Assembly: GCA_947384285.1 (NCBI GenBank) | Contig: CANDGI010000010.1 | Location: forward strand, 27,015-91,014 | Direction: 5' to 3' | DNA: 64,000 bases | From: an uncultured Lachnospiraceae bacterium | GTDB lineage: Bacteria > Bacillota > Clostridia > Lachnospirales > Lachnospiraceae | Part shown: piece by piece, positions 47,700 to 61,547 of the stretch | Position numbering within the stretch: position 1 is the first letter of the stretch | How the letters are laid out: the number at the start of each line of letters is the position of its first letter | The notes under the pieces: model-generated | Databases searched by the model: none | What the model saw: the letters and a program-made list of their open reading frames with translations, nothing else | What the model was told of the DNA's origin: nothing | Made by a program: the position numbers and the translations under genes

Positions 47700-49415
47700 A
47701 TGGCAGTAAACAGTGAGAAGTTTGAAAATTTATTGAATCTTGCCCTGGACGCCACCGGGCGGGAACGGGAAAAATCCCTGCAGCTGGGGGTAGGGTTCGA
47801 GCCGGAGGAAGACAAGTGGGAGCTGATTGTAAAGTATTCTGGGAATATTATGCGCCTGGCAGAGGAAAATCCTGACATACAGGTTGTGGAATTGATGAAT
47901 GAGTATGCGATTTTGTACGTGCCGGAAAATGATATGGAGCAGGTGGCGTTGGCGCCGGAGGTAGAATATGTGGAAAAGCCCAAGCGGCTTTATTTTGCAG
48001 TGCAGGAAGGGAAACAATCTTCCTGCATTACGCCTTTGCAGGGGGCGCGTTATCATCTGACCGGGAAAGGCGTGATCGTGGCCGTTTTAGATTCCGGCAT
48101 TGACTACAGCCACCCGGATTTCCGGAATGAGGATGGCAGTACGAGGATTCTTGCATTGTATGATGAGACATTGGATCGGGAATTTACCCAAGAGGAGATT
48201 AATCAGGCATTGGAGAGTTCCGATGAGCAGGAGCGGTTTCGTATCGTTCCAAGCCGGGATTCTTCCGGGCATGGTACCCATGTGGCAGGGATTGCGGCAG
48301 GAAGCGGCAGGGCTTCGGGAGGGGTGAACCGGGGCGTGGCATATGAAAGCCCTCTGCTGATTGTGAAGCTTGGCACCCAGGAACCCAATGGATTTCCAAG
48401 AACCACACAGCTGATGCGGGGCCTTGATTATGTGGTGCGCAAGGCGCTGGAATACCAGATGCCTATGGCGGTCAACATCAGCTTTGGGAATACTTATGGC
48501 TCCCACAGCGGAACGGCATTGCTGGAAAGCTATATCAATGACATTTCCAACTACTGGAAGACCAGCATTTCCATTGGAACCGGGAATGAGGGGGCGGCCA
48601 GAGGCCATACGTCCGGCATTTTAAAGCAGGGCGAGGCGAGAGAGATTGAGCTGGGCGTGGGAGAATATGAGACGTCCATTAATCTGCAGATTTGGAAGTC
48701 TTATGTGGATCAGTTTGATATCGTTTTGGTACACCCCTCTGGCATCCGGGTCGGACCCATACGCCAGATTCAAGGTCCCCAGCGTTTTGTGCTGGATAGG
48801 ACGGAACTGCTGATTTATTATGGAGAACCAAGCCCCTATAATCTTTACCAGGAAATTTATGTGGATTTCCTTCCGGCCTATGATTATATTGACGGAGACA
48901 TTTGGAAAATTTTGCTGGAGCCGGAACGGATCGTCCGGGGCAATTATGACCTGTGGCTGCCCGGCCAGGCTGTTTTAAACCAGGGGACGGGATTTTTGTT
49001 TCCGATTGAGGAGACCACTTTGACAATTCCTTCCACGGCGGAAAAGGCCATCTCTGTGGGGGCGTATGATGCAAGATATAACCAGCTGGCGGATTTTTCC
49101 GGCAGGGGCTTTACCAGGCAGACCAACCAGGTGAAACCAGATTTGGCCGCCCCTGGGGTTGCAATACGTTCTGCCGCCCCTGGGGGCGGCTATGCGGTGC
49201 GCAGCGGCACCTCCATGGCCACGCCCTTTGTGACAGGGAGCGCGGCGCTTTTGATGCAGTGGGGGATTGTAGAGTATAATGATCCCTATCTGTATGGGGA
49301 AAAAGTGAAGGCCTATCTGATCAGGGGCGCAAAGCATCTTCCTATTTTGCGGGAGTATCCCAATCCGGCGTTGGGCTGGGGCGTTCTGTGTCTGAGGGAT
49401 AGTATGCCGGCTTGA
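47700..49415 (+). CDS. Subtilisin-like serine protease, S8 family (clostridial Csp-like)
   Basis: 571 aa from the ATG at 47700 (CAGGAG at 47689-47694). Catalytic triad in place: D131 (AVLDSGIDYSHPDF), H191 (SSGHGTHVAGIAAG), S505 (SGTSMATPFVTG), with the oxyanion Asn in ISIGTGNEG. No signal peptide. A ~100-residue N-terminal region resembles the prodomain of Csp-type proteases, which in clostridia process cortex-lytic pro-SleC during germination, and a ~120-residue insertion sits before the Ser region as in that group. Given the spore genes in the window a germination role is plausible but unproven. The 3' end of a paralogue survives 3.4 kb downstream. Confidence 0.9.
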   Translation: MAVNSEKFENLLNLALDATGREREKSLQLGVGFEPEEDKWELIVKYSGNIMRLAEENPDIQVVELMNEYAILYVPENDMEQVALAPEVEYVEKPKRLYFAVQEGKQSSCITPLQGARYHLTGKGVIVAVLDSGIDYSHPDFRNEDGSTRILALYDETLDREFTQEEINQALESSDEQERFRIVPSRDSSGHGTHVAGIAAGSGRASGGVNRGVAYESPLLIVKLGTQEPNGFPRTTQLMRGLDYVVRKALEYQMPMAVNISFGNTYGSHSGTALLESYINDISNYWKTSISIGTGNEGAARGHTSGILKQGEAREIELGVGEYETSINLQIWKSYVDQFDIVLVHPSGIRVGPIRQIQGPQRFVLDRTELLIYYGEPSPYNLYQEIYVDFLPAYDYIDGDIWKILLEPERIVRGNYDLWLPGQAVLNQGTGFLFPIEETTLTIPSTAEKAISVGAYDARYNQLADFSGRGFTRQTNQVKPDLAAPGVAIRSAAPGGGYAVRSGTSMATPFVTGSAALLMQWGIVEYNDPYLYGEKVKAYLIRGAKHLPILREYPNPALGWGVLCLRDSMPA

Positions 49416-49582
49416 ATTAGAAAAGTAGGGAAATGTTTTGTAATTAGAAATGAGAAAAGATTGAGTGTAATAAGAGGGCATGTTATACTAATATTTAGAA
49501 GTATTTCAAAATCCGAAAGAGAGGGTTAACAGCGTTTGACTGATAGCATCATATAAAAAATGTAAATTGCTTTTTTAGGAAA

Positions 49583-49639: not shown

Positions 49640-50557
49640 ATGGGAAATATATATGATGGAGCATTCCGGACAATCGTAAATGATTGCCGTCAGATGCTCA
49701 TCCCAGTAATCAATGAGATTTTTGGGGAGGGCTATACAGGGAATGAAAAAATAGAGTTTCATCCCAATGAGCATTTTATTGATCAACAGGATGCAGTGAA
49801 CCAGGAAAGAATAACAGACACTAATTTCATCATATATGGAAAGAAAAAGAAGAAATACCATCTTGAATGTGAGAGCAGTCTGCCAGATGGGCGGATGACA
49901 ATCAGATTATTCGAGTATGATGCACAGATAGCGTTAGATGAAGGTGAAGTCGTTCACGAAACATTGACAGTGACATTTCCCAATACAGCAGTGCTGTATC
50001 TGAGGAATTATAAAAAGACACCTGACAAAATGCAGTATGTAATAAAAACACCAGGCGGAAGTGTAGAGTATGATGTTCCAATTATGAAAATACAGGAATA
50101 TTCTCTGGAAGATATTTTTTCAAAAAACTTATTACTGCTAATTCCGTTTTATATTTTTTCACATGAAAAGGATTTTAAGGTGTATAATAGTAACGAACAA
50201 AGGCTGGAAGAACTGCGGGCAGAATATCAGGATATTTTAAGAAGGCTTGATGAACTGGAGCAGGAAGGGATGATTGGGGCGTTTGACAAACGTACTATTA
50301 TAGAGCTTTCACGTGATGTGATAAAAGAAATCGCAAAAAAGTACGAGAATGTGCAGAAAGGAATAGGTGAAATGATGAGCGGGGCGTTAATTGAAACAGA
50401 AGCAAGGACAATTTTGAATAAAGGAAAAGCGGAAGGCAGAAAGGAAGCTGCTCTCAGAATGTTACAGGACGGAGAATTGCCAATGGATAAGATTGCAAAA
50501 TATTCAGGGTTAGATATTACAGAAGTAGAGTTACTTGCAGGGATTCAGATGGTGTAA
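49640..50557 (+). CDS. Rpn/YhgA-like PD-(D/E)XK nuclease family protein
   Basis: 305 aa. The segment RITDTNFIIYGKKKKKYHLE followed by CESSLPDGRMTIRLFEYD matches the PD-(D/E)XK core of the Rpn-type 'putative transposase' nucleases (Asp in the first strand, ExE in the second; the usual final Lys is replaced by Ser). The C-terminal third is a helical tail with KAEGRKEAALRMLQDGELP, the degenerate repeat end seen in this family. Such genes are multicopy and mobile in gut Firmicutes; E. coli RpnA promotes recombination and nicks DNA. AT-richer than the neighbours. RBS GGAGG at 49629. Confidence 0.75.
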   Translation: MGNIYDGAFRTIVNDCRQMLIPVINEIFGEGYTGNEKIEFHPNEHFIDQQDAVNQERITDTNFIIYGKKKKKYHLECESSLPDGRMTIRLFEYDAQIALDEGEVVHETLTVTFPNTAVLYLRNYKKTPDKMQYVIKTPGGSVEYDVPIMKIQEYSLEDIFSKNLLLLIPFYIFSHEKDFKVYNSNEQRLEELRAEYQDILRRLDELEQEGMIGAFDKRTIIELSRDVIKEIAKKYENVQKGIGEMMSGALIETEARTILNKGKAEGRKEAALRMLQDGELPMDKIAKYSGLDITEVELLAGIQMV

Positions 50558-51333: not shown

Positions 51334-52429
51334 ATGTATAGAAAAATAGCGGAGAAATTGTATGAAAATTTTATAGTAAATACCAGTGCTGCAGCAATAC
51401 AGCAGAAAGAATCAAAATATTTTACAGTAAAGTCACCTATTACTATATTCACTATATAATAAGGATTGCCCTCCACATAGAAAAGATACCTTTATAGAAG
51501 AATTTATTTTTCGGGCATTAGGAATTCCATACCATACAATGGATGTAAATCATGTTTCTAATAATATAAATTTTGTGGAAAGCATTGTGAATAAGGAAAT
51601 AAATTATTTTATGTATAATGATGAGGTATACCATTTACAGACGTTGTATAAAATGAAGTCTTTTTCGTATTATGATTATTGCAAAATAGAAGAAATTATT
51701 ACTAATATAGAAATGGGTAAATATCATTTGCCTGCCCAAATTGAGTTTTACCAATATATCAGACAAGAGGAAGATAAGCAGCGCAGATTAATTTCTTTGG
51801 GTGCGCAGGAGCGGGTTGTCACAACGGCATTGGTTAATAAAATGATAATGTATCTCCAAAGAGATTATTCTTCTTATAGTTATCACCTAAATTTCGGAAT
51901 GGAAGGAGATGTATTTTATCCATGGATAAGTTCATGGATACGTTTTAAGAATGATGTTTCGCAGTATTTTTCGTATCCAATATTTGAAAATTTTTGCTGT
52001 GCGAAAGTAGATATAAAAGGATTTTATGATAACATATATTTACAAACAATGTTTGACAATATCATTCAGTATAAAGGCATAAAACAGCATGAAAAATTTA
52101 GCAATATATATAGATATTTAAATATTATAAATGAGAAAATAATGCTTGGAAGTGTTGGGGATTTAAGAGGGGTACCACAGGGGCCTGCTTATGCGAGAGT
52201 GTTGGCGGAAATGGTATTGGATGAAATGCTATCACAATTTTTTGAGAAATATTTATTGTACCAGGCGGTTAAAGTATATAGATATGTCGATGACATGTTC
52301 TTATTTTTTCCTAGTAGGATTGATGGTGAAAGCCTTATATCAGATTTATCAATTTTTTTGGAGGAACGAGGGTTGCATCTCAATACAAAAAAACTAAAAA
52401 CTATGGAAAAATTGGGGAATTATCTATAG
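51334..52429 (+). pseudogene. Reverse transcriptase of the defence-associated (unknown-group) type, 5' end frameshifted
   Basis: The frame 51539-52429 holds an RT domain: RRLISLGAQERVVTTALVNK (RT1-2 region), AKVDIKGFYDNI (RT3 with catalytic Asp), LRGVPQGPAYARVLAEMVL (RT4) and YRYVDDMFLFF (YxDD box). The frame is open upstream to about 51430 without a start codon (KDTFIEEFIFRALGIPYHTM). A second frame with its own ATG at 51334 and AAGGG site runs up to 51460 (MYRKIAEKLYENFIVN), so a single frameshift near 51440-51460 probably split the gene. No group II intron or retron RNA was recognised, so I favour a UG/DRT-type or abortive-infection RT. Very AT-rich. Confidence 0.7.
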
Positions 52430-52773
52430 TGGATAAACATGAATTACAGGAATTCCGGGATTTGAATTATGAAGTTTTCCAAGCAACCGAGGAGAATTGG
52501 ATTAACTTCGCAGATAAAAATGAGAATGAAGATATCTATGTTAGATATCTTTACCGAAAAAATAACTGGGATATTAATGATGCAAATTTAATTTTTAGTG
52601 AAAAAGTTAGCGCTTCTTTACAAGAAAAATACTTTAGGGAATTTTATAAAAAAATTTTGTGTTCTCAATGTGGAAGGGGTTCTTTATTCAGAAAATTTTT
52701 TATTAAAATAGGTTTACAGAAAACATTTGCAGATTATCAAAAGAGGGGAGGGAGAAAATCATACTTGGGCTAG
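52429..52773 (+). pseudogene. Probable C-terminal remainder of the RT gene
   Basis: 114 codons starting from GTG one base before the RT stop (TAGTG overlap) and in another frame. Sequence is Lys/Asn/Glu-rich and helical (EFRDLNYEVFQATEENWINF, EKYFREFYKKILCSQCGRG). No known domain. It fits an RT thumb/C-terminal extension separated by a second frameshift, or a small coupled partner gene. Same AT-rich composition. Confidence 0.4.
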
Positions 52774-52852: not shown

Positions 52853-52980
52853 CACCATATGGGGAGAAGGTGAAAGCATACCTGATAAGGGGTGCGAAAC
52901 ATCTGCCGATTCTGCAGGAGTACCCAAATCCGTCATTAGGCTGGGGCGTTCTCTGCCTTAGGGATAGTCTGCCGGGGTGA
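52853..52980 (+). pseudogene. 3' remnant of a second S8 protease gene
   Basis: The last ~41 codons match the end of the intact S8 protease (49290-49411): PYGEKVKAYLIRGAKHLPIL, then EYPNPSLGWGVLCLRDSLPG and stop. Protein identity is high while many codons differ, so this is a diverged paralogue and not a recent copy. Upstream homology ends abruptly at the AT-rich RT region. Confidence 0.85.
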
Positions 52981-53327
52981 AAAACAGTTTTTGGTACATT
53001 TGATAAATTGATATTGTAGGAGATGGATGGTAGGAGAAGAATTAAGGAGTATGGGGAAAAGATAGAGCAGAATAAGGATATCTGATTATTTCATCCAGAA
53101 TGTATCTCCAGGGCGATAAGGGAAAGCTTTGGTTTGGCTATAGGAAAAATGCTTTTGGCGACATAGAGAGCTGCCAGGAGCAATATTTAGTGCTTGACTG
53201 CTTATCATACGGTGACAGTTGTTATGTTTCCAAAGTCTTTTATCGAACAACATTTGTTTTTATAGAACTACGGGAATGTTTGTGGTAAAATAGCCATAGG
53301 TTTTATATTTTCATAAGGAGTATGTTT
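52981..53327. other. Gene-free 347 bases between two pseudogenes
   Basis: Holds a 62-codon frame (53100-53288, MYLQGDKGKLWFGYRKN) with no ribosome binding site and no recognised family; probably decayed coding sequence. An ATAAGGAG site at 53313-53320 belongs to the broken gene that follows. Confidence 0.3.
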
Positions 53328-54377: not shown

Positions 54378-54932
54378 ATGCAATATACATGGAATGATAT
54401 TGAGCAGCATGTTGCCGCCTGTACCCATTGCCCATTGAGCCAGACCAGATGCCGTCCGGTCATGGGGCGTGGAAATCATCAGGCAGACATAATGCTGATT
54501 GCCGAGGCTCCAGGAGGGCAGGAGGACCAGCAGGGGATTCCTTTTGTAGGGCGTTCCGGGGAAGTGCTGGACAGGCTTTTGCAGGACTGCGGACTTTCCA
54601 GGGAGGAAATTTACATTACCAATATTCTAAAATGCCACCCTCCCGGGAACCGCGACCCAAAAGAGGAGGAAAAGGAAGCGTGTTTTCCATATCTGAAATA
54701 CGAGACTTTTCTTCTAAACCCCAAAATTATTGTCTGCCTGGGGCGCGTGGCAGCCCAGCGGATTATTTCACCAGATTTTAAAATCACAAGGCAGCATGGC
54801 ACATGGACATACCGGAAAGACTGTGCGCTGACTGCCGTATACCACCCTTCAGCAATCCTAAGGGACATTTCCAAATATGAGGATGCCAGGAGGGATTTCT
54901 GCGGAATTGTAAAAAAGCTAGAACATGTTTGA
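54378..54932 (+). CDS. Uracil-DNA glycosylase, family 4 (Fe-S)
   Basis: 184 aa. Four cysteines for a [4Fe-4S] cluster: C15 and C18 (ACTHCPL), C86 (ILKCHPPGNR) and C102 (EACFPYL). Active-site motif A EAPGGQEDQQG and the C-terminal HPSAILR are present. The enzyme removes uracil from DNA. Start is fixed by AAGGAGG at 54367-54373. It lies 56 bases upstream of rdrA on the same strand and could be cotranscribed with the RADAR genes, but this is a common housekeeping gene and the link may be accidental. Confidence 0.92.
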   Translation: MQYTWNDIEQHVAACTHCPLSQTRCRPVMGRGNHQADIMLIAEAPGGQEDQQGIPFVGRSGEVLDRLLQDCGLSREEIYITNILKCHPPGNRDPKEEEKEACFPYLKYETFLLNPKIIVCLGRVAAQRIISPDFKITRQHGTWTYRKDCALTAVYHPSAILRDISKYEDARRDFCGIVKKLEHV

Positions 54933-54988
54933 AAAATGTTTTCTGACAGAGGAAAAGGGGAACCGAAAAAGTACAAGGGGGAATTAAA

Positions 54989-57900
54989 ATGATCCAGCAA
55001 AAAGAAAATAATAACAAAATAGGGGCAAGATGTTTGTCGGATTTGGAAGCCGAATTAATTCTGCCGACTTACCAGCGGATTTATGATCAAATAGATCAAT
55101 TCCGCAGGGAAAAGCAAGCGGTAGGACGTGAAAAAAAGCAAAGGGAGAATAAGCGGGACGAGAGACAGAGCGGCACGAGCCAGGACGTAATTCAAAAAAC
55201 AAACAATATCGGAATCATAGGAGTCCGCGGAGCTGGAAAGACTTCTGTCTTAAAGACAATACGTGTCCGCCTGGAAAGGGAGCGCGATAGCGATTCAAAA
55301 ATAAATGATATTATATTTCCGATTATTGTCCCTGAAAATATGTCGGAATCCGGCAATCTAATGGCAACAATTTTGGGTATGCTAGGTGAAGTGGTAGAGG
55401 AACGGGAGGAAAAAGAGAAAAAGGAGAACAAAAAACACAATGTAGATTGTATTCGCAAATCCTCCCTTCATTTAAAATATGATGAAGTGGTGAAACAGTA
55501 TACGTACATTCAAAAGGAATACCGTGATATCTTAATTCATCAATACACAACGGAGAATGATTATGTGGGCCGTTCAGCCAAGGTGTTTAATTCCGATACG
55601 GTATTTATCAATAAATTTAACGAATTGATAGATGAACTGGTAAAGACAAAGAGCCAGGAGGATAATTCCGGCCTTCTTTTTCTTTTTATAGATGATATTG
55701 ATTTGAGTACCTACCGGTGTGCGGATGTGGTGAAAACTCTGCTTTCCTATTTGTCGAATGAAAATATTGTCACTTTTATTTCGGGGGATTTGGAGACCTT
55801 TGAGGAAGCTCTGGCTTTGGATTTTCTCAGGCAGGAGAATGTGCTGGATAAGGACATTTTGGATAAGAAAGTTGGACATATCACATTGCTGGACAGCAAA
55901 AAAATGCTTGCCTATGAATACCTGAAAAAGATTATTCCTCCTGCGTACCGATACAATATTAAATATTGGTCTTTGGAAGAGATGGGGAATTACTGCATTG
56001 GGGATCCAGCAGGGAATCCGGGGAAAGAGGAACAAAAAGACGAGCAGCAGAGAGCTGGAATAAGGCTTTCGGAACTGCTGGCTAGGGCATTAAAGGATTG
56101 GGTTGACCCTGCATTCTTCTGTTATGGAGATGAGGAAGCAGAAGAAAAAGAGAAGGAAAAAGAGGGGCAGAAGGGAAGTGTGGCTGCTGCTGGGGAGTCT
56201 CCCAAAATATGGAAGGCCTTGCCTTATACATATCATTTATTTGACAATACTTCCCGTGGGCTGAACAATGTCTATAATGTATTGAGTGAAATTGCGGCAG
56301 AAAGAGAAAATCAGGAAAAGGAAAATAAGGAAAAGGATTATTCCAAGGAAAAGAAATTGCTGTTGGATACCATTATTTCTTCCAAGCCCATTTATAACCA
56401 TTATCGGAACAGGATACAGCAGAATTTTTTTAATGTGGGAATGACGGAGGCTGGCAGCCGGGTGTTCTTTGATAATGTAAAGGCTATTATTTACGAAAAG
56501 AAGAAACAGGAAAAAAACGGGGATGGTACAGAAAATCAAAATAACGATTCAAAAAGCCCAAATGGCGGTTCAGAAAACAAAGAGAAAGGCCAAGGGACAT
56601 ATCGGATAGAGAACCCGGTGGAACGATTTTCTCTGTTTATCTTGGCAGATTTTGCGGCAAGGCTTCTTTATGAAAAGGATTATGAAAAACAGGTGAAAGA
56701 AGATGGGTTTTATGGAGGATTAAAGGAAGAAGCCATGAAAGACCTGTTTTTCCATCCTATCATAGCGGAAAAAGTTATGGATGTTTCTAAGTATTGTTGG
56801 GAGAATAAAGAAATGTCAAAGGAGGGGGAAAAGGAAGAGCTAGCGTTGAACGACATGGAATTGAAGGACGTAAATATCAGCTTTTTGCTGAAAGGAGACT
56901 TGGCATTGAATTTGGCATATTATAAAAATCTCCCGTTAAATGAAATGCTGAGATTATATGAAGTTGATAAAGATGGAAAGCCCAGACAGGGAGTATTTGT
57001 TAATGCAGAATTGGAACAGAGCACGGTTATCGCTGTCTGGAGAGCCTTTTCATCAATAGCCAGGGTAAATGCCGGGGGAAATGTGCCGCAAATGATTGCC
57101 AGGTCTTACTCTGTCTTTTGGAAAGAATTTGCGTATATCCGTAATCGGATGTCAAGTTCTGTCACCCAGAATATTGCGATAAGATTATTTGATAATGAAA
57201 TATACAATGTTTTGAGTAACGATAAAAAGCTGATGCAGCCAAGGGAGAAGATGCAGATAAGGCGTATTTTATCAAATACGCTGGCACGGGTGTTAAAGGC
57301 AGAGGGCAAGGATGTAGTTGAGAATAGGTGGCAGGAGATTACCGCTGGCACGCAGTATGTTGCTATATTTAAAAATAAAGAAGAAACGGAACTTGGTTCA
57401 GAAGGGGCAGACAGAGAAAATATAGAAAAGAGGGTACAGATTTTAAAGGTAATTGATTCCAGGGGGCTATGGCAGGCGGAAGCTGCGGCGGAAGTGGTTT
57501 CTTATTTAAAAAAGATAGTCAGGCACTATCTCAAATCGATGAAAGAAGGTATGGAAGAGGAAGCCTGGAGCTTAAATACAAGTGTGGCAAATGATAGTTG
57601 GAAAAAGTTTGAAAGAGCGGATAAAGGTGTGAGTTCTACGGTAGCCAAACGCACATTTAATGATGTTAACAAAATTCTTAAAGGGAAGCAAACGAATTTT
57701 GCGAATGGGATGCCTCTCCAAACATATAGGGAAGTGATTGAACAGCTAGACGGTTTAGCGGGAAATAACCGTGTATGGTATGGCCAATCGGAAGCACAGG
57801 AAATATTGAATAAATTACAGGAGGCATCAGCGGAGCCAGTGAAAGGATGGAAAGGATGGAATAGTTGGATTGGGGAGCATTCTTATTTTGTCTTTCTGCT

Positions 57901-58120
57901 GCAATGCCTGTACAAATATAGGATGGAGCAGCAAAAGGACAATAACATTGAGAAGAACGCTTCTTTGCTGGCAGAAATCACCCAAACATTATCCGTTGCG
58001 CATAAGGATGCTGACAGGCAGACATTGGAGGATTTCATTGACAGATTGAACGAGGGATTAGAAAAAAATATTGATTCCGAAGAATTTGAAAAGTTGTTTT
58101 CCTTACAGTTAGCAGAGTGA
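54989..58120 (+). CDS. rdrA: RADAR anti-phage system ATPase RdrA
   Basis: 1043-aa P-loop ATPase. Walker A GVRGAGKT at residues 78-85, Walker B LLFLFIDDID at 229-238, then a long helical region. It is the usual partner of an RdrB-type deaminase, which follows 13 bases after the stop, so identification rests on fold plus pairing. In characterised RADAR, RdrA forms a ring and works with RdrB to convert adenosine nucleotides (or RNA adenosines) to inosine on phage infection, halting growth. Notable are Glu/Lys-rich stretches around 135-150, 380-405, 430-450 and 515-545. RBS AAGGGGG precedes the ATG. No membrane segment. Composition is AT-richer than housekeeping genes here. Confidence 0.85.
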   Translation: MIQQKENNNKIGARCLSDLEAELILPTYQRIYDQIDQFRREKQAVGREKKQRENKRDERQSGTSQDVIQKTNNIGIIGVRGAGKTSVLKTIRVRLERERDSDSKINDIIFPIIVPENMSESGNLMATILGMLGEVVEEREEKEKKENKKHNVDCIRKSSLHLKYDEVVKQYTYIQKEYRDILIHQYTTENDYVGRSAKVFNSDTVFINKFNELIDELVKTKSQEDNSGLLFLFIDDIDLSTYRCADVVKTLLSYLSNENIVTFISGDLETFEEALALDFLRQENVLDKDILDKKVGHITLLDSKKMLAYEYLKKIIPPAYRYNIKYWSLEEMGNYCIGDPAGNPGKEEQKDEQQRAGIRLSELLARALKDWVDPAFFCYGDEEAEEKEKEKEGQKGSVAAAGESPKIWKALPYTYHLFDNTSRGLNNVYNVLSEIAAERENQEKENKEKDYSKEKKLLLDTIISSKPIYNHYRNRIQQNFFNVGMTEAGSRVFFDNVKAIIYEKKKQEKNGDGTENQNNDSKSPNGGSENKEKGQGTYRIENPVERFSLFILADFAARLLYEKDYEKQVKEDGFYGGLKEEAMKDLFFHPIIAEKVMDVSKYCWENKEMSKEGEKEELALNDMELKDVNISFLLKGDLALNLAYYKNLPLNEMLRLYEVDKDGKPRQGVFVNAELEQSTVIAVWRAFSSIARVNAGGNVPQMIARSYSVFWKEFAYIRNRMSSSVTQNIAIRLFDNEIYNVLSNDKKLMQPREKMQIRRILSNTLARVLKAEGKDVVENRWQEITAGTQYVAIFKNKEETELGSEGADRENIEKRVQILKVIDSRGLWQAEAAAEVVSYLKKIVRHYLKSMKEGMEEEAWSLNTSVANDSWKKFERADKGVSSTVAKRTFNDVNKILKGKQTNFANGMPLQTYREVIEQLDGLAGNNRVWYGQSEAQEILNKLQEASAEPVKGWKGWNSWIGEHSYFVFLLQCLYKYRMEQQKDNNIEKNASLLAEITQTLSVAHKDADRQTLEDFIDRLNEGLEKNIDSEEFEKLFSLQLAE

Positions 58121-58133
58121 CAGGGGTGGAGCG

Positions 58134-60848
58134 ATGATCAATGATTCTATTAACCGGTTCCTGGGAGTTTTATGCTATCCGTTTACGTCTCTGGAAGCAT
58201 TTCAGGAAGACCTTATCAACCAATATATTGCCGCTGTAAGGGCAAACGATAAAGAGGAGGCCGGAAGAATAAAAAAACGCCTGAAAAGCCAGCTGATCGG
58301 CTATATCCGCAAAAATTACAATATTTATTCTTATGACGAGATTTATCTGTACCTGGAAAAATGTTACCTATATTATGATTTTAATGATGACACCAAGCAG
58401 CTGGAAGACGCTTTGCAATTATATCAGCGCATTATGAGGAAGATGGCGGCGGCATTGATTTCCCACCGGGATGGGCGCATCGTTTTTAAATACTGGAAAA
58501 ATAAAAATGATGAAGAATTATTCGGTGGATTTGCAAACAATAACAAGGTGGCTTTGTTTCACAGCTTAAGCTGCCATGTTCCCATGGATGTGATTGCCAT
58601 TGTCTATATGGTTAACAATCAGGAGAAGCTGGACGCCAGGTGTCTGGATTATTTTTACGGAAATATCGAGGTGGCGGATCAGCAGCTGTCCAGGGTTCTG
58701 GAAAGAGGGGTGGCGGAAAATCATCTGCATAAAGGGGTATCCAGAACATTTTCCAGTATATGGGACTCTCTGATGGAGCCGTTGACCGTAGAAAACAGTA
58801 AATTCTTCTGGAACAGAGTATTTGTTGACGGCACGAAGGAGCAGAATAAGCAGATGATTTTCTATATCTTAGGCTGCGGAATTGCCAGGGCATATCTGGC
58901 TTTGGAAATTTCCTTTGTGATGAAGGAGGGAACACGGCTGGGAGCTGATGCCTATGGAGAAGATGTAAAAAAACTGATAGACAGTTTTCAAAAGGGGCAG
59001 AAGTTTGAGAAATTTTTCAGAGAGAATTTTCAAGATGGACGCATCAAAGAAATTACGTTATACTATGAAAAATTGTGGAACAGCCTGGAGAGAACCCAGC
59101 AGAAGGCTTTTTCCAAGGACAAGCTCTGCATATCTATTTTTCATGAGAATACAGAGCTTCATACCACGGATGAAAATGTTTTTTTATATTATGTATTCTA
59201 TGAGATGATGAGAGATGGCATGGAGGATGATATGAAGCAATGTGTGATGCAGTATTTGCGGGTGAGAAATCATCTGTTCCATGTGAGTGTGCAGCAGAAG
59301 ACCATAAAGGGGCTGGATTATTTCCAGCAGGCGCATTACAGTGTGAATTCCGCTCTGAACCATGTGAATATAAACAATTTCTGGGAGGCGGCTATCCGGG
59401 AACAGCTGCAAAACCGGGATTTATGCAAGATTGAGTTCCGCTCTTCCATACCGGTGAAGGAGTCAGAATGCAAGAGGGAGATACGGGATTTCCTTGGCGC
59501 TTATCAGAGGATATTGCGGGAAGATTACTGCCATTATGATAGAGAAAACGAGGAATACATTCCTTACCGCAAAATCCCACACGTGGGTCTTGTGATGCAT
59601 TTTCTGAAACGGCCGGATACGTCGGCACCGGAGAAATGTTTCCAAAATGGAAAGGCAGACTGCTCCTATTTCCACTTTGGCGAGCTGCAGAAGGAGTACA
59701 AGACACAGCTTGAAAATCTGATTCATTTAAGGACAGAGTACAGCGAATTAAGCAGGTATCTGGTTGGAATTGATGCTGCAAGCCTGGAAAATTCTACGCC
59801 AGTCTGGGTATTTGCGCCCATCTTTGAAGGGGCAAGGGACAGCAGCGTGGAACAGATTGGACGAAAAAATGAATATGGGGACTATACCCAGAGCCTGGGC
59901 TTTACGTTCCATGCCGGGGAGGATTTCCGCCATATTTTGTCTGGGCTAAGAAGGATGGATGAAGCGCAGGAATATTTAAAATTCCATGCGGGGGACAGGA
60001 TTGGACATGGGATTGCCCTTGGCATTTCGGCCAGAGAATGGAAAAGGCAGAATCCGGTGATTATTATTCCGCAAGTAGAAGCATTGGAGAATTATCTTTG
60101 GGCTTATGATATGCTAAGTAAAAATTACAGTGATTTCCAGGCAACGATCTTGGCATATATGGAAAAACAGATTTATGAATTATCTGGAAAAATCTATGGA
60201 AACTGGAAGGGGAGCTGGGAAGAGGGGCAGGAAAGAGCGCAGGAAGGCATTGCAATAGAAATTTTGATTGCTGGTTACCACAGGCTGTTTGCATCCGGTG
60301 GGAAAGATTGTGAAATGATGGAGAAAGAGTTCTGCGAAAGGCTCTGCTCAGGAAAGAAAATCCACTGGGATCCGGCATTGCTGGTGGCAGCCAGGCATTG
60401 TAAAAAATTTGTGAGAGAGATGGAGCGGCCTGTCCATTATGAGATTACAGAACAGGATCTGCTGATCGTGGAAGAGCTGCAAAGAATATTGAAAAGAAAG
60501 CTGGGGAGAAAAGGCATCGTGGTGGAGGTAAACCCTTCTTCCAATACGGCCATTGCAGACTTAGATGTGGTGGAGGCAAACCAGCTTTATCAAATGAACC
60601 AGATTAATGATGCGCAGAATGTGATTGTCTGCATCAACTCAGATGATCCAGCGGTTTTTAACACGAATGTGTCAAATGAGCTGGCATATATTTATTATGG
60701 CATGCTGGAACAAAATATCAGCAGGGAGGCGGCGCTGCTTTGGATTGACCGGATTCGGAAGAACGGGCTGGATAGTTCCTTTATCCGCCGCCGGGAATCA
60801 GACCGGCTGTTGATGAAAAAATTAGATGAATTATTGGAAAGGATGTAG
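58134..60848 (+). CDS. rdrB: RADAR anti-phage system adenosine deaminase RdrB
   Basis: 904 aa. An adenosine/AMP-deaminase metal site is spread over the protein: HxH at H197/H199 (AENHLHKG), HAGED with H593 and catalytic E596, DRIGHG with H625, and the metal-binding Asp in SDDP (D837/D838); VEVNPSSNTAI is the adjoining family motif. Large insertions between these motifs make it more than twice the size of housekeeping adenosine deaminases, as in RdrB proteins that form large cages. It follows rdrA with its own RBS (GGGGTGGAG), so the two are cotranscribed. All catalytic residues are intact, so the system is probably active. Confidence 0.88.
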   Translation: MINDSINRFLGVLCYPFTSLEAFQEDLINQYIAAVRANDKEEAGRIKKRLKSQLIGYIRKNYNIYSYDEIYLYLEKCYLYYDFNDDTKQLEDALQLYQRIMRKMAAALISHRDGRIVFKYWKNKNDEELFGGFANNNKVALFHSLSCHVPMDVIAIVYMVNNQEKLDARCLDYFYGNIEVADQQLSRVLERGVAENHLHKGVSRTFSSIWDSLMEPLTVENSKFFWNRVFVDGTKEQNKQMIFYILGCGIARAYLALEISFVMKEGTRLGADAYGEDVKKLIDSFQKGQKFEKFFRENFQDGRIKEITLYYEKLWNSLERTQQKAFSKDKLCISIFHENTELHTTDENVFLYYVFYEMMRDGMEDDMKQCVMQYLRVRNHLFHVSVQQKTIKGLDYFQQAHYSVNSALNHVNINNFWEAAIREQLQNRDLCKIEFRSSIPVKESECKREIRDFLGAYQRILREDYCHYDRENEEYIPYRKIPHVGLVMHFLKRPDTSAPEKCFQNGKADCSYFHFGELQKEYKTQLENLIHLRTEYSELSRYLVGIDAASLENSTPVWVFAPIFEGARDSSVEQIGRKNEYGDYTQSLGFTFHAGEDFRHILSGLRRMDEAQEYLKFHAGDRIGHGIALGISAREWKRQNPVIIIPQVEALENYLWAYDMLSKNYSDFQATILAYMEKQIYELSGKIYGNWKGSWEEGQERAQEGIAIEILIAGYHRLFASGGKDCEMMEKEFCERLCSGKKIHWDPALLVAARHCKKFVREMERPVHYEITEQDLLIVEELQRILKRKLGRKGIVVEVNPSSNTAIADLDVVEANQLYQMNQINDAQNVIVCINSDDPAVFNTNVSNELAYIYYGMLEQNISREAALLWIDRIRKNGLDSSFIRRRESDRLLMKKLDELLERM

Positions 60849-60870: not shown

Positions 60871-60964
60871 ACTTCCACATCCGCTCAGCGGAGCCAAACC
60901 TGGCAGCGGAAGCATCCCAGGCGGCAGTTAGGCATTTACTTCCATATCCGCTCGGCGAAGCCAA
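60871..60964 (-). repeat. 27-bp imperfect duplication of the opuBD 3' end
   Basis: 60938-60964 (the last codons of opuBD) is repeated at 60871-60897 with three mismatches, 67 bases beyond the stop. CCTGG and CCAGG in between (60899-60921) could pair weakly; no strong terminator was seen between the convergent rdrB and opu operons. Confidence 0.7.
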
Positions 60965-61547
60965 GCAGCCAGTCGATGAAAACGGCCAGCAATGCAGATA
61001 ACAGGCTTCCCCAGAAAATTTTTGCAGAATTCATGGTACGCAGCCCGTCAAAAAGAATGGTTCCCAATCCCCCTGCGTTGATGGAGGCGGCAATGGTGGC
61101 GATGGATACCGTCGCCACCATTGCGATGCGGATTCCGGCAATGAATGCGCCTTTCGAAAGGGGCAGTTTGATTTTTACAAGAACCTCCACAGGCGTCATG
61201 CCCATGCCGGCTGCTGCTTCCACAATGCTTTGATCCACCTCATCTAATCCTGCAAGGAAATTCTGCAGCAAAAGATATTGGTTGTAAATGACCAGCACGG
61301 TAATTGCCGTGGTTTTTCCAAGGCCGGTCAGGGGAATCAGCAGGGCGAACAGGGCAAGGCTTGGGATGGAATAAACCATGGAAAAAAGTCCAAGGGTAAA
61401 CTTTGTTATTTTGCTGGAATAGCTGCAGATAATCGTCAGGCAGGCGGCAGCCACCAGCGAAATTGCCAGCGTAACCAGTACAATCTGCAAATGCTCTAAG
61501 GCTGCTTTTGCCAAATCATCATAGTGTGCTGTGATATAATCTATCAT
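60936..61547 (-). CDS. opuBD: Glycine betaine/carnitine/choline ABC permease (OpuBD-like)
   Basis: 203 aa with five to six membrane helices and the ABC permease EAA-type loop ([21 protein letters not shown]). It is the last gene of a four-gene operon. Its ATG overlaps the stop of the ATPase gene as ATGA. With the second permease it forms the channel of an osmoprotectant importer. The choice between choline, betaine and carnitine cannot be made from sequence. Confidence 0.9.

Follow-up and report, generated by a model that had tools for sequence, protein, structure and literature searches.

A 64,000-nucleotide stretch of contig CANDGI010000010.1 (assembly GCA_947384285.1) from an uncultured Lachnospiraceae bacterium, called the window below, contains two large adjacent genes, rdrA and rdrB. 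Do these genes form a RADAR anti-phage system, and how do they compare with the RADARs already known? A sequence-only reading had proposed a complete RADAR locus of the minimal, two-gene form inside a defence island. We conclude that the pair is very probably a RADAR system that stands alone (rdrA-rdrB) and belongs to a lineage of its own. What is new, as judged from sequence comparison, is the lineage with its own conserved cysteine set; the system itself appears to be a catalytically standard RADAR.

Identity of the gene pair

The two genes and the stretches preceding them are as follows.

54975..54981, plus strand: ribosome-binding-like purine-rich stretch before rdrA (from the sequence)
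54989..58120, plus strand: rdrA, encoding a 1043-amino-acid (aa) AAA+ ATPase (open reading frame, ORF; PADLOC, NCBIfam and PDB matches)
58122..58131, plus strand: ribosome-binding-like purine-rich stretch before rdrB, inside the 13-bp gap (from the sequence)
58134..60848, plus strand: rdrB, encoding a 904-aa adenosine deaminase-like protein (ORF; PADLOC, NCBIfam and PDB matches)

The ORFs and the sequence bear out what had been read of both proteins: 1043 aa with intact Walker A (residues 78-85) and Walker B (residues 229-238) motifs for RdrA, and 904 aa, starting 13 bases after rdrA, with H197, H199, H593, E596, H625 and D837 all present for RdrB. The layout and sizes had also been taken as those of RADAR, and they agree with the tandem rdrA-rdrB order and the size of about 900 aa expected of both proteins. 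The RADARs of E. coli P0304799.3, C. rodentium and S. suis are likewise two large tandem genes, an AAA+ ATPase followed by a deaminase, and in RADAR of this type two genes suffice (PMC9994260).

PADLOC matched RdrA at 1.2e-8 and RdrB at 1.5e-32, and the best NCBIfam matches were RdrA at 1.2e-12 and RdrB at 2.2e-51; because of these E-values, a chance match is excluded. When solved structures in the PDB were searched, the best matches of window RdrA were the RdrA entries 8hr7 (9e-6) and E. coli 8fnt (1e-5). Window RdrB resembles housekeeping adenosine deaminases in its Pfam A_deaminase match (2.2e-7), but it differs from them in its length and in its best structure match, E. coli RdrB 8fnw at 1.3e-19 against 0.0015 for the top ordinary deaminase. 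The top profile and structure matches were RdrA and RdrB, and not the STAND or Septu ATPases or housekeeping deaminases that the sequence-only reading had named as the competing outcome, and its assignment to RADAR holds.

The similarity of the pair to known RADAR appears remote but clear. Compared with E. coli RADAR, window RdrB is only remotely similar, and window RdrA has long charged inserts. These inserts, at about residues 300-570 (window 55880-56700), are rich in lysine and glutamate, variable in length and unlike each other even among close relatives. An 18-row RdrA profile also matched S. suis RdrA (8fnu, 1.4e-19). S. suis RdrA was rejected as a close relative; its structure was matched by the mixed profile and by neither RdrA branch profile at 0.01.

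Catalytic residues and predicted activity

The motifs of the two proteins, with their conservation among the aligned RdrA and RdrB, are the following.

55220..55243, plus strand: RdrA Walker A, residues 78-85 (GVRGAGKT); G81, G83 and K84 identical in 35/35 RdrA
55673..55702, plus strand: RdrA Walker B, residues 229-238 (LLFLFIDDID); D235 and D236 identical in 35/35 RdrA
58722..58730, plus strand: RdrB H197-x-H199, zinc ligands (E. coli H152/H154); mapped to E. coli, identical in 40/40
59910..59921, plus strand: RdrB H593-AG-E596, zinc ligand and catalytic Glu (E. coli H498/E501); mapped, H593 and E596 identical in 40/40
60006..60008, plus strand: RdrB H625, zinc ligand (E. coli H530); mapped, identical in 40/40
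60642..60644, plus strand: RdrB D837, deaminase Asp; identical in 40/40

RdrA has, in addition to the two Walker motifs, R423, which is identical in 35/35 RdrA and by its position is probably the sensor 2 Arg. RdrB has the complete His tetrad and the catalytic Glu, the same set as in E. coli RdrB, where the zinc ligands are H152, H154, H498 and H530 and the catalytic Glu is E501 (PMC9994260).

By analogy with E. coli RADAR, we infer that RdrA would respond to phage infection and that its AAA+ ATPase ring would then dock via its crown on the RdrB shell, as a heptamer on a dodecamer, and that upon infection RdrB would deaminate ATP and dATP to inosine triphosphate (ITP) and its deoxy form, dITP (PMC9994260). 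The (d)ITP would stop phage replication and probably also the cell. The original RADAR proposal, as summarised in PMC7699616, was different: the system would act mainly by A-to-I editing of RNA and not on free nucleotides. However, E. coli RADAR gave protection with no signature of editing, and its RdrB, once purified, acted on ATP and not on a hairpin RNA (PMC9994260). Window RdrB retains the same active-site residues, and RNA editing as its main activity is quite improbable.

Nucleotide conversion of this kind is also known from the CARF-fused adenosine deaminase Cad1, which converts ATP to ITP (PMC11645235). Its likeness to window RdrB lies in the C-terminal deaminase part (PADLOC CARF_ADA, 1.5e-5, RdrB residues 786-901). 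Unlike Cad1, window RdrB has no CARF domain by Pfam and has an ATPase partner.

A separate RADAR lineage

In an IQ-TREE tree of 34 RdrB, the window fell inside a group of 16 rows with support of 100/100. Outside it were 15 rows that formed a second group, one row from a viral contig, and the RdrB of E. coli and Aliivibrio named RADAR by NCBI. A FastTree tree of 44 RdrB placed 22 rows together with support of 100. The branch leading to the window's RdrB lineage was about 1.6 changes per column long in the 34-row tree. These trees fully support the placement of the window pair in a separate RADAR lineage, apart from the NCBI-named E. coli and Aliivibrio RdrB. The lineage takes in a plasmid of Cetobacterium (Fusobacteriota; locus L038), and the second group comes mostly from genomes belonging to the same order as the window, with a Bacteroidota plasmid in addition.

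The tree rows do not include the RADARs tested in PMC9994260, and long-branch warnings were given for L041 and L074 in the 34-row tree and for L118 in the 44-row tree. The RdrB trees and counts exclude the broken L004 and the partial rows L042 and L043. Among RdrA rows, L029 (uncertain start) was omitted from alignments A2 and A6, only the first ORF of L128 was aligned, and L066 (two ORFs), L032 (contig end), and L118 and L121 (RdrA not found) were unused.

RADAR was reported in 270 of about 38,000 genomes (PMC9994260). With the single window RdrB as the query, a match was found in 11/299 genomes of the family at 1e-5. A 20-row profile matched in 21/392 genomes of the order at 1e-10, comprising 15 full-length RdrB and 6 frames of 313-397 aa, which is the size of ordinary deaminases. 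At 1e-30, the 16-row lineage profile matched in 7/391 genomes of the class, three of which (the window's own included) lay inside the lineage in the 44-row tree, in 1/398 genomes of the phylum, namely the window's own, in 5/198 in the order of genome G981, and in 2/22 in the order of genome G851. A search of viral contigs and phage records with window RdrB found no relative. The RdrB profile search of viral contigs gave three distant loci, of which only L041 was noted with an RdrA-RdrB pair; this very divergent RADAR pair lies on an IMG/VR viral contig (L041:3810-9167, plus strand).

Conservation and minimal form of the pair

The order rdrA then rdrB was found in 22/22 loci of the lineage, with the genes directly adjacent in 21/22. 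The exception is L128, where a 525-aa ORF without a match lies between RdrA and RdrB. A split rdrA was considered for this locus and is not supported, as the 525-aa ORF matched no other RdrA at 1e-3. The pair is kept in relatives with 64-82% RdrB identity, one of them broken (L004). The ratio of nonsynonymous to synonymous substitution rates (dN/dS) between the window and its relatives was 0.14-0.19 for rdrA and 0.05-0.07 for rdrB (for each gene, 4/5 comparisons yielded a value); dS, at 1.3-4.2, was saturated or nearly so. From these low values, both genes are under purifying selection.

The broken copy belongs to Lachnospiraceae bacterium 3-1 (L004:4805-10432), where it adjoins the same transporter as in the window, with a DNA match from window 54965, and is reduced to RdrA fragments of 707 and 309 aa and RdrB fragments of 691 and 99 aa. 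This broken relative could be read as a sign that the window copy, too, is inactive or decaying. Both window ORFs are, however, of full length with all motifs, and their dN/dS is low, which makes decay of the window copy highly improbable.

No membrane accessory gene of Csx27- or SLATT-associated RADAR adjoins the window pair. The upstream neighbour, 56 bp before rdrA, is a family-4 uracil-DNA glycosylase, and the downstream genes are on the opposite strand and, as read from the sequence, look like an opu-type ABC transporter. The earlier description of the locus as having no such small membrane gene, and as the minimal form, was right for the window, and its closest relatives have no accessory gene family in common. 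The Csx27- and SLATT-associated subtypes described in PMC7699616 share the RdrA-RdrB core and differ from the window in having that gene. The glycosylase was considered as a RADAR accessory and rejected: a related gene was found in none of the other RADAR loci compared, and because a match is present in 16/29 genomes of the genus, it is a chance neighbour rather than part of RADAR.

Several observations weigh against the reading of the pair as a stand-alone RADAR system. The NCBIfam equivalog cut-offs (NF041743/NF041744) were not reached, RdrA scoring 47.2 of 600 bits and RdrB 175.4 of 800, although such a cut-off is a naming threshold and not a defining property of RADAR. Similarity to known RdrA is confined to the ATPase half of window RdrA. 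The window genome is 83% complete and in 74 contigs, and the broken copy in L004 means that RADAR can be lost. The pair's membership of a separate lineage explains why the match is remote and far under the cut-offs; tested RADARs have a mutual identity of only 22-28% in their conserved parts (PMC9994260).

Lineage-specific cysteines

Four cysteines characterize the lineage, three in RdrB and one in RdrA.

59637..59639, plus strand: RdrB C502, lineage-specific cysteine; 22/22 lineage rows, 0/22 others
60333..60335, plus strand: RdrB C734, lineage-specific cysteine; 22/22 lineage rows, 1/22 others
60399..60401, plus strand: RdrB C756, lineage-specific cysteine; 22/22 lineage rows, 0/22 others
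55448..55450, plus strand: RdrA C154, lineage-specific cysteine beside crown residues; 16/16 lineage rows in alignment A5

C502, C734 and C756 were first seen to be invariant in 16 lineage RdrB. In a joint alignment of 40 RdrB (18 of the lineage and 22 others), they were present in 18, 18 and 18 of the 18 lineage rows and in 0, 1 and 0 of the 22 others. The spacing in these 18/18 lineage rows was 12-15 residues from H489 to C502 and 19-24 from C734 to C756. Six lineage rows were found after the pattern had been seen (L116, L117, L126-L129), with a profile that contained the cysteine columns, which add little to the scores of 792-976 bits. C502 and C756 were present in 6/6 of them, and C734 was aligned in 6/6 with the usual spacing in 5/6. 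In four later rows, the distance from H489 to C502 was 13 in 4/4, and that from C734 to C756 was 22 in 3/4, the other being L128 with 35 residues.

Four RdrB that lie outside the lineage and were aligned likewise had C734 in 0/4 and C756 in 0/4. One of these four, L119, had a Cys at position 502 in the alignment of later rows and not in the joint 40-row alignment. When the solved E. coli RdrB is aligned, C502 falls opposite a gap and C756 opposite a residue other than Cys. At window F118 and T555, the RdrB from outside the lineage show two cysteine columns (77% of 22) that are absent from the window's lineage. H755 was considered as a fourth ligand and rejected, as it is common outside the lineage too (18/22).

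In 16 lineage rows RdrA has 18 invariant columns, C154 among them. In the joint alignment it was present in 17/18 lineage rows and 0/17 others, and by alignment also in 4/4 later rows. L117 RdrA has only two cysteines in 1152 residues, one of which is the equivalent of C154. A test that does not depend on alignment, for a Cys 78-89 residues before Walker B, was positive in 18/18 lineage rows and 4/17 others. A further RdrA cysteine, C244, was present in 83% of 18 lineage rows and in 0/17 others.

When window RdrA is aligned to E. coli RdrA, C154 sits in a gap of six residues immediately ahead of the segment containing K150, E151 and R162; charge swaps at these crown residues impair defence (PMC9994260). 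C734 and C756 lie downstream of H625, at the place of insertion 3 in E. coli RdrB, through which the threefold contact is made (PMC9994260). By position in the sequence, the cysteine set would thus be placed near assembly regions. It is possible that C502, C734 and C756 together with RdrA C154 constitute a metal or thiol site, which, less surely than the catalytic steps above, may stabilise or gate the assembly.

The invariant cysteines may instead serve packing only, or be partly an effect of alignment, and bind nothing, and we give this a chance only a little short of even. C734 lies in a gappy region of the alignment, its spacing to C756 is 35 residues in L128, and one outsider has a Cys there. 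Against packing alone, only 3 of the 17 cysteines of window RdrB stand at 22/22 in the enlarged lineage and the next best is found in 0.45 of rows, whereas the 12 neighbours of C502, C734 and C756 have an average conservation of 0.34, 0.24 and 0.44; the spacings from H489 to C502 and from C734 to C756 are also tight. Two observations count against a metal or thiol site. The alignment-free RdrA test was positive in only 2/4 later rows, with cysteines at 91 in one of the others and at 94 and 97 in the other. Also, the cysteines are the mark of a single tree branch, and therefore their joint presence is one event and not repeated co-evolution. A broad literature search showed no paper on a RADAR cysteine set among those listed.

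KomB-KomC fusions in relatives

Three RADAR loci of the lineage have a gene that fuses KomB (Ham1) and KomC (SIR2), the partners of KomA in the Kongming system. In Kongming, dITP binds KomB, and KomC destroys NAD+ (PMC12948488, PMC12774641).

L070:5481-6947, minus strand: KomB-KomC (Ham1-SIR2) fusion, just after rdrB
L128:9530-10933, minus strand: KomB-KomC (Ham1-SIR2) fusion, just before rdrA
L129:9793-11526, minus strand: KomB-KomC (Ham1-SIR2) fusion, just before rdrA

All three matched Ham1 (PF01725) at 8.8e-34 or better and the SIR2-like domain (PF13289) at 9.3e-17 or better, and against solved structures the L070 fusion matched KomC at 1.6e-52 and KomB at 3.2e-37. The Ham1 motif is EHT, with a His, in 3/3 fusions, the same as in solved KomB, and therefore the fusions are KomB-like. 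At the same place, an Asp is found in 5/5 non-fused Ham1 copies, chosen without regard to the motif, and in the solved pyrophosphatases 1b78 and 1v7r (DDSG, DDTG, LDSG, EDSG). We take this Asp to be the catalytic residue. The motif suggests that the Ham1 part of the fusions acts as a sensor and not as a hydrolase. The His of K(L/I)HGD, kept in 3/3 fusions, is KomC H146, which was changed in entry 9xvc.

The fusion was sought in 30 of 34 RADAR-bearing genomes and was present in 3/30, always inside the RADAR operon. The three loci are on separate branches within the lineage in the 44-row tree. In the window genome, 83% complete, no KomBC fusion was found, only a 215-aa Ham1-like frame at 38 bits. 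KomB (Ham1) and KomC (SIR2) genes, by which Kongming is recognised, are not found beside the window pair. The window thus differs from Kongming in having no KomBC; the likeness would be the inosine nucleotide as the product, by analogy for the window, and the fusion in its three relatives. A literature search, covering listings and passages, found no paper tying RADAR to KomBC.

The fusions also bear on whether the pair might be a RADAR-derived deaminase and ATPase with another substrate or job, for example on another purine nucleotide. The separate RdrB branch of about 1.6 changes per column and the lineage-specific cysteines could be read in this way. The catalytic set, however, is unchanged in 40/40, and three operons of the lineage contain a KomB-KomC fusion, whose known relatives are dITP-responsive, which would fit an inosine nucleotide as the product. 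We consider another substrate or job improbable.

The presence of the fusion in three RADAR operons means that, by analogy with Kongming, RADAR (d)ITP may also be a signal in those relatives; for the window system, this is only suggestive. A wider proposal joins the two features of the lineage. C502, C734, C756 and C154 would form one site, binding metal (zinc or iron-sulfur) or based on thiols, between the RdrA crown and RdrB, assembly and the (d)ITP burst would then depend on metal or redox state, and (d)ITP would be both signal and poison, read by KomBC-type NADases where these are present. We regard this proposal, drawn from sequence patterns, as doubtful.

Genomic setting

The window was compared with the DNA of 12 stretches from members of the genus (L004 and L102 being overlapping parts of one genome). 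In the six stretches that have the glycosylase the match stopped at 54880-54916, and in the six that have the transporter it began at 60958-60972, with RADAR between the two borders. The immediate neighbours of RADAR differed in L002, L003, L005, L006 and L026.

The pair had been described as sitting among wrecks of other defence genes. This was correct for one element upstream.

51539-52773, plus strand: UG10-type defence reverse transcriptase, truncated and spread over two ORFs (PADLOC RT_UG10_small, 1.6e-86 and 1.8e-15; profile positions 368-651 and 657-741 of 824)

It did not hold for an AAA-ATPase_like fragment or for a 305-aa ORF at 49640, neither of which matched a PADLOC model at 0.01. 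A rich defence island was rejected, as the two UG10 reverse transcriptase pieces were the only ones with PADLOC matches among five upstream pieces scanned. The claim of a defence island is therefore weak: the setting is a junction of chromosomal genes, and the genes around are mostly chromosomal and include one UG10 reverse transcriptase, which is broken. The 3' end of an S8 protease-like gene is doubled (49293-49416 and 52858-52981, 81% identical), flanking the UG10 segment, and looks like an old insertion or duplication.

Neighbouring genes of other RADAR loci

In the second RdrB group, seven loci (L029, L030, L033, L034, L035, L036 and L067) have a related gene for a 412-538-aa protein before rdrA, and six of the seven also have a gene of a Csx27-like or SLATT/DUF4231-like cluster. 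Two of the 412-538-aa proteins were scanned: L036 gave TPR matches and L033 only weak repeat matches, the L033 copy matching no PADLOC model. Among cluster members scanned, PADLOC Csx27 was matched in L034 and DUF4231 in L036, and the L033 member was without such a match. Possibly, the 412-538-aa protein belongs to the SLATT subtype with four genes that PMC7699616 names.

A SLATT/DUF4231-like gene (5.1e-9) lies directly 3' of RdrB at L066:6192-6707 (minus strand). At L032:867-5601 (minus strand), the genes immediately after RdrB, on its strand, encode a CD-NTase and a TIR-STING protein (CBASS). A Rhizobium leguminosarum plasmid has an RdrA-RdrB-sized pair (L140:3054-11073, plus strand), the second gene of which matches window RdrB; about 900 bp after the pair is a gene annotated as adenylosuccinate synthetase, an IMP-using enzyme.

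Implications for RADAR

How RADAR is triggered and how its two large rings are regulated are questions left open in the discussion of PMC9994260, and the extra conserved cysteines, one of them beside the docking residues, would give a concrete handle on them. The KomB-KomC fusions in relatives make it testable whether the inosine nucleotides of RADAR merely spoil the nucleotide pool or may also act as a second messenger for NAD+ depletion.

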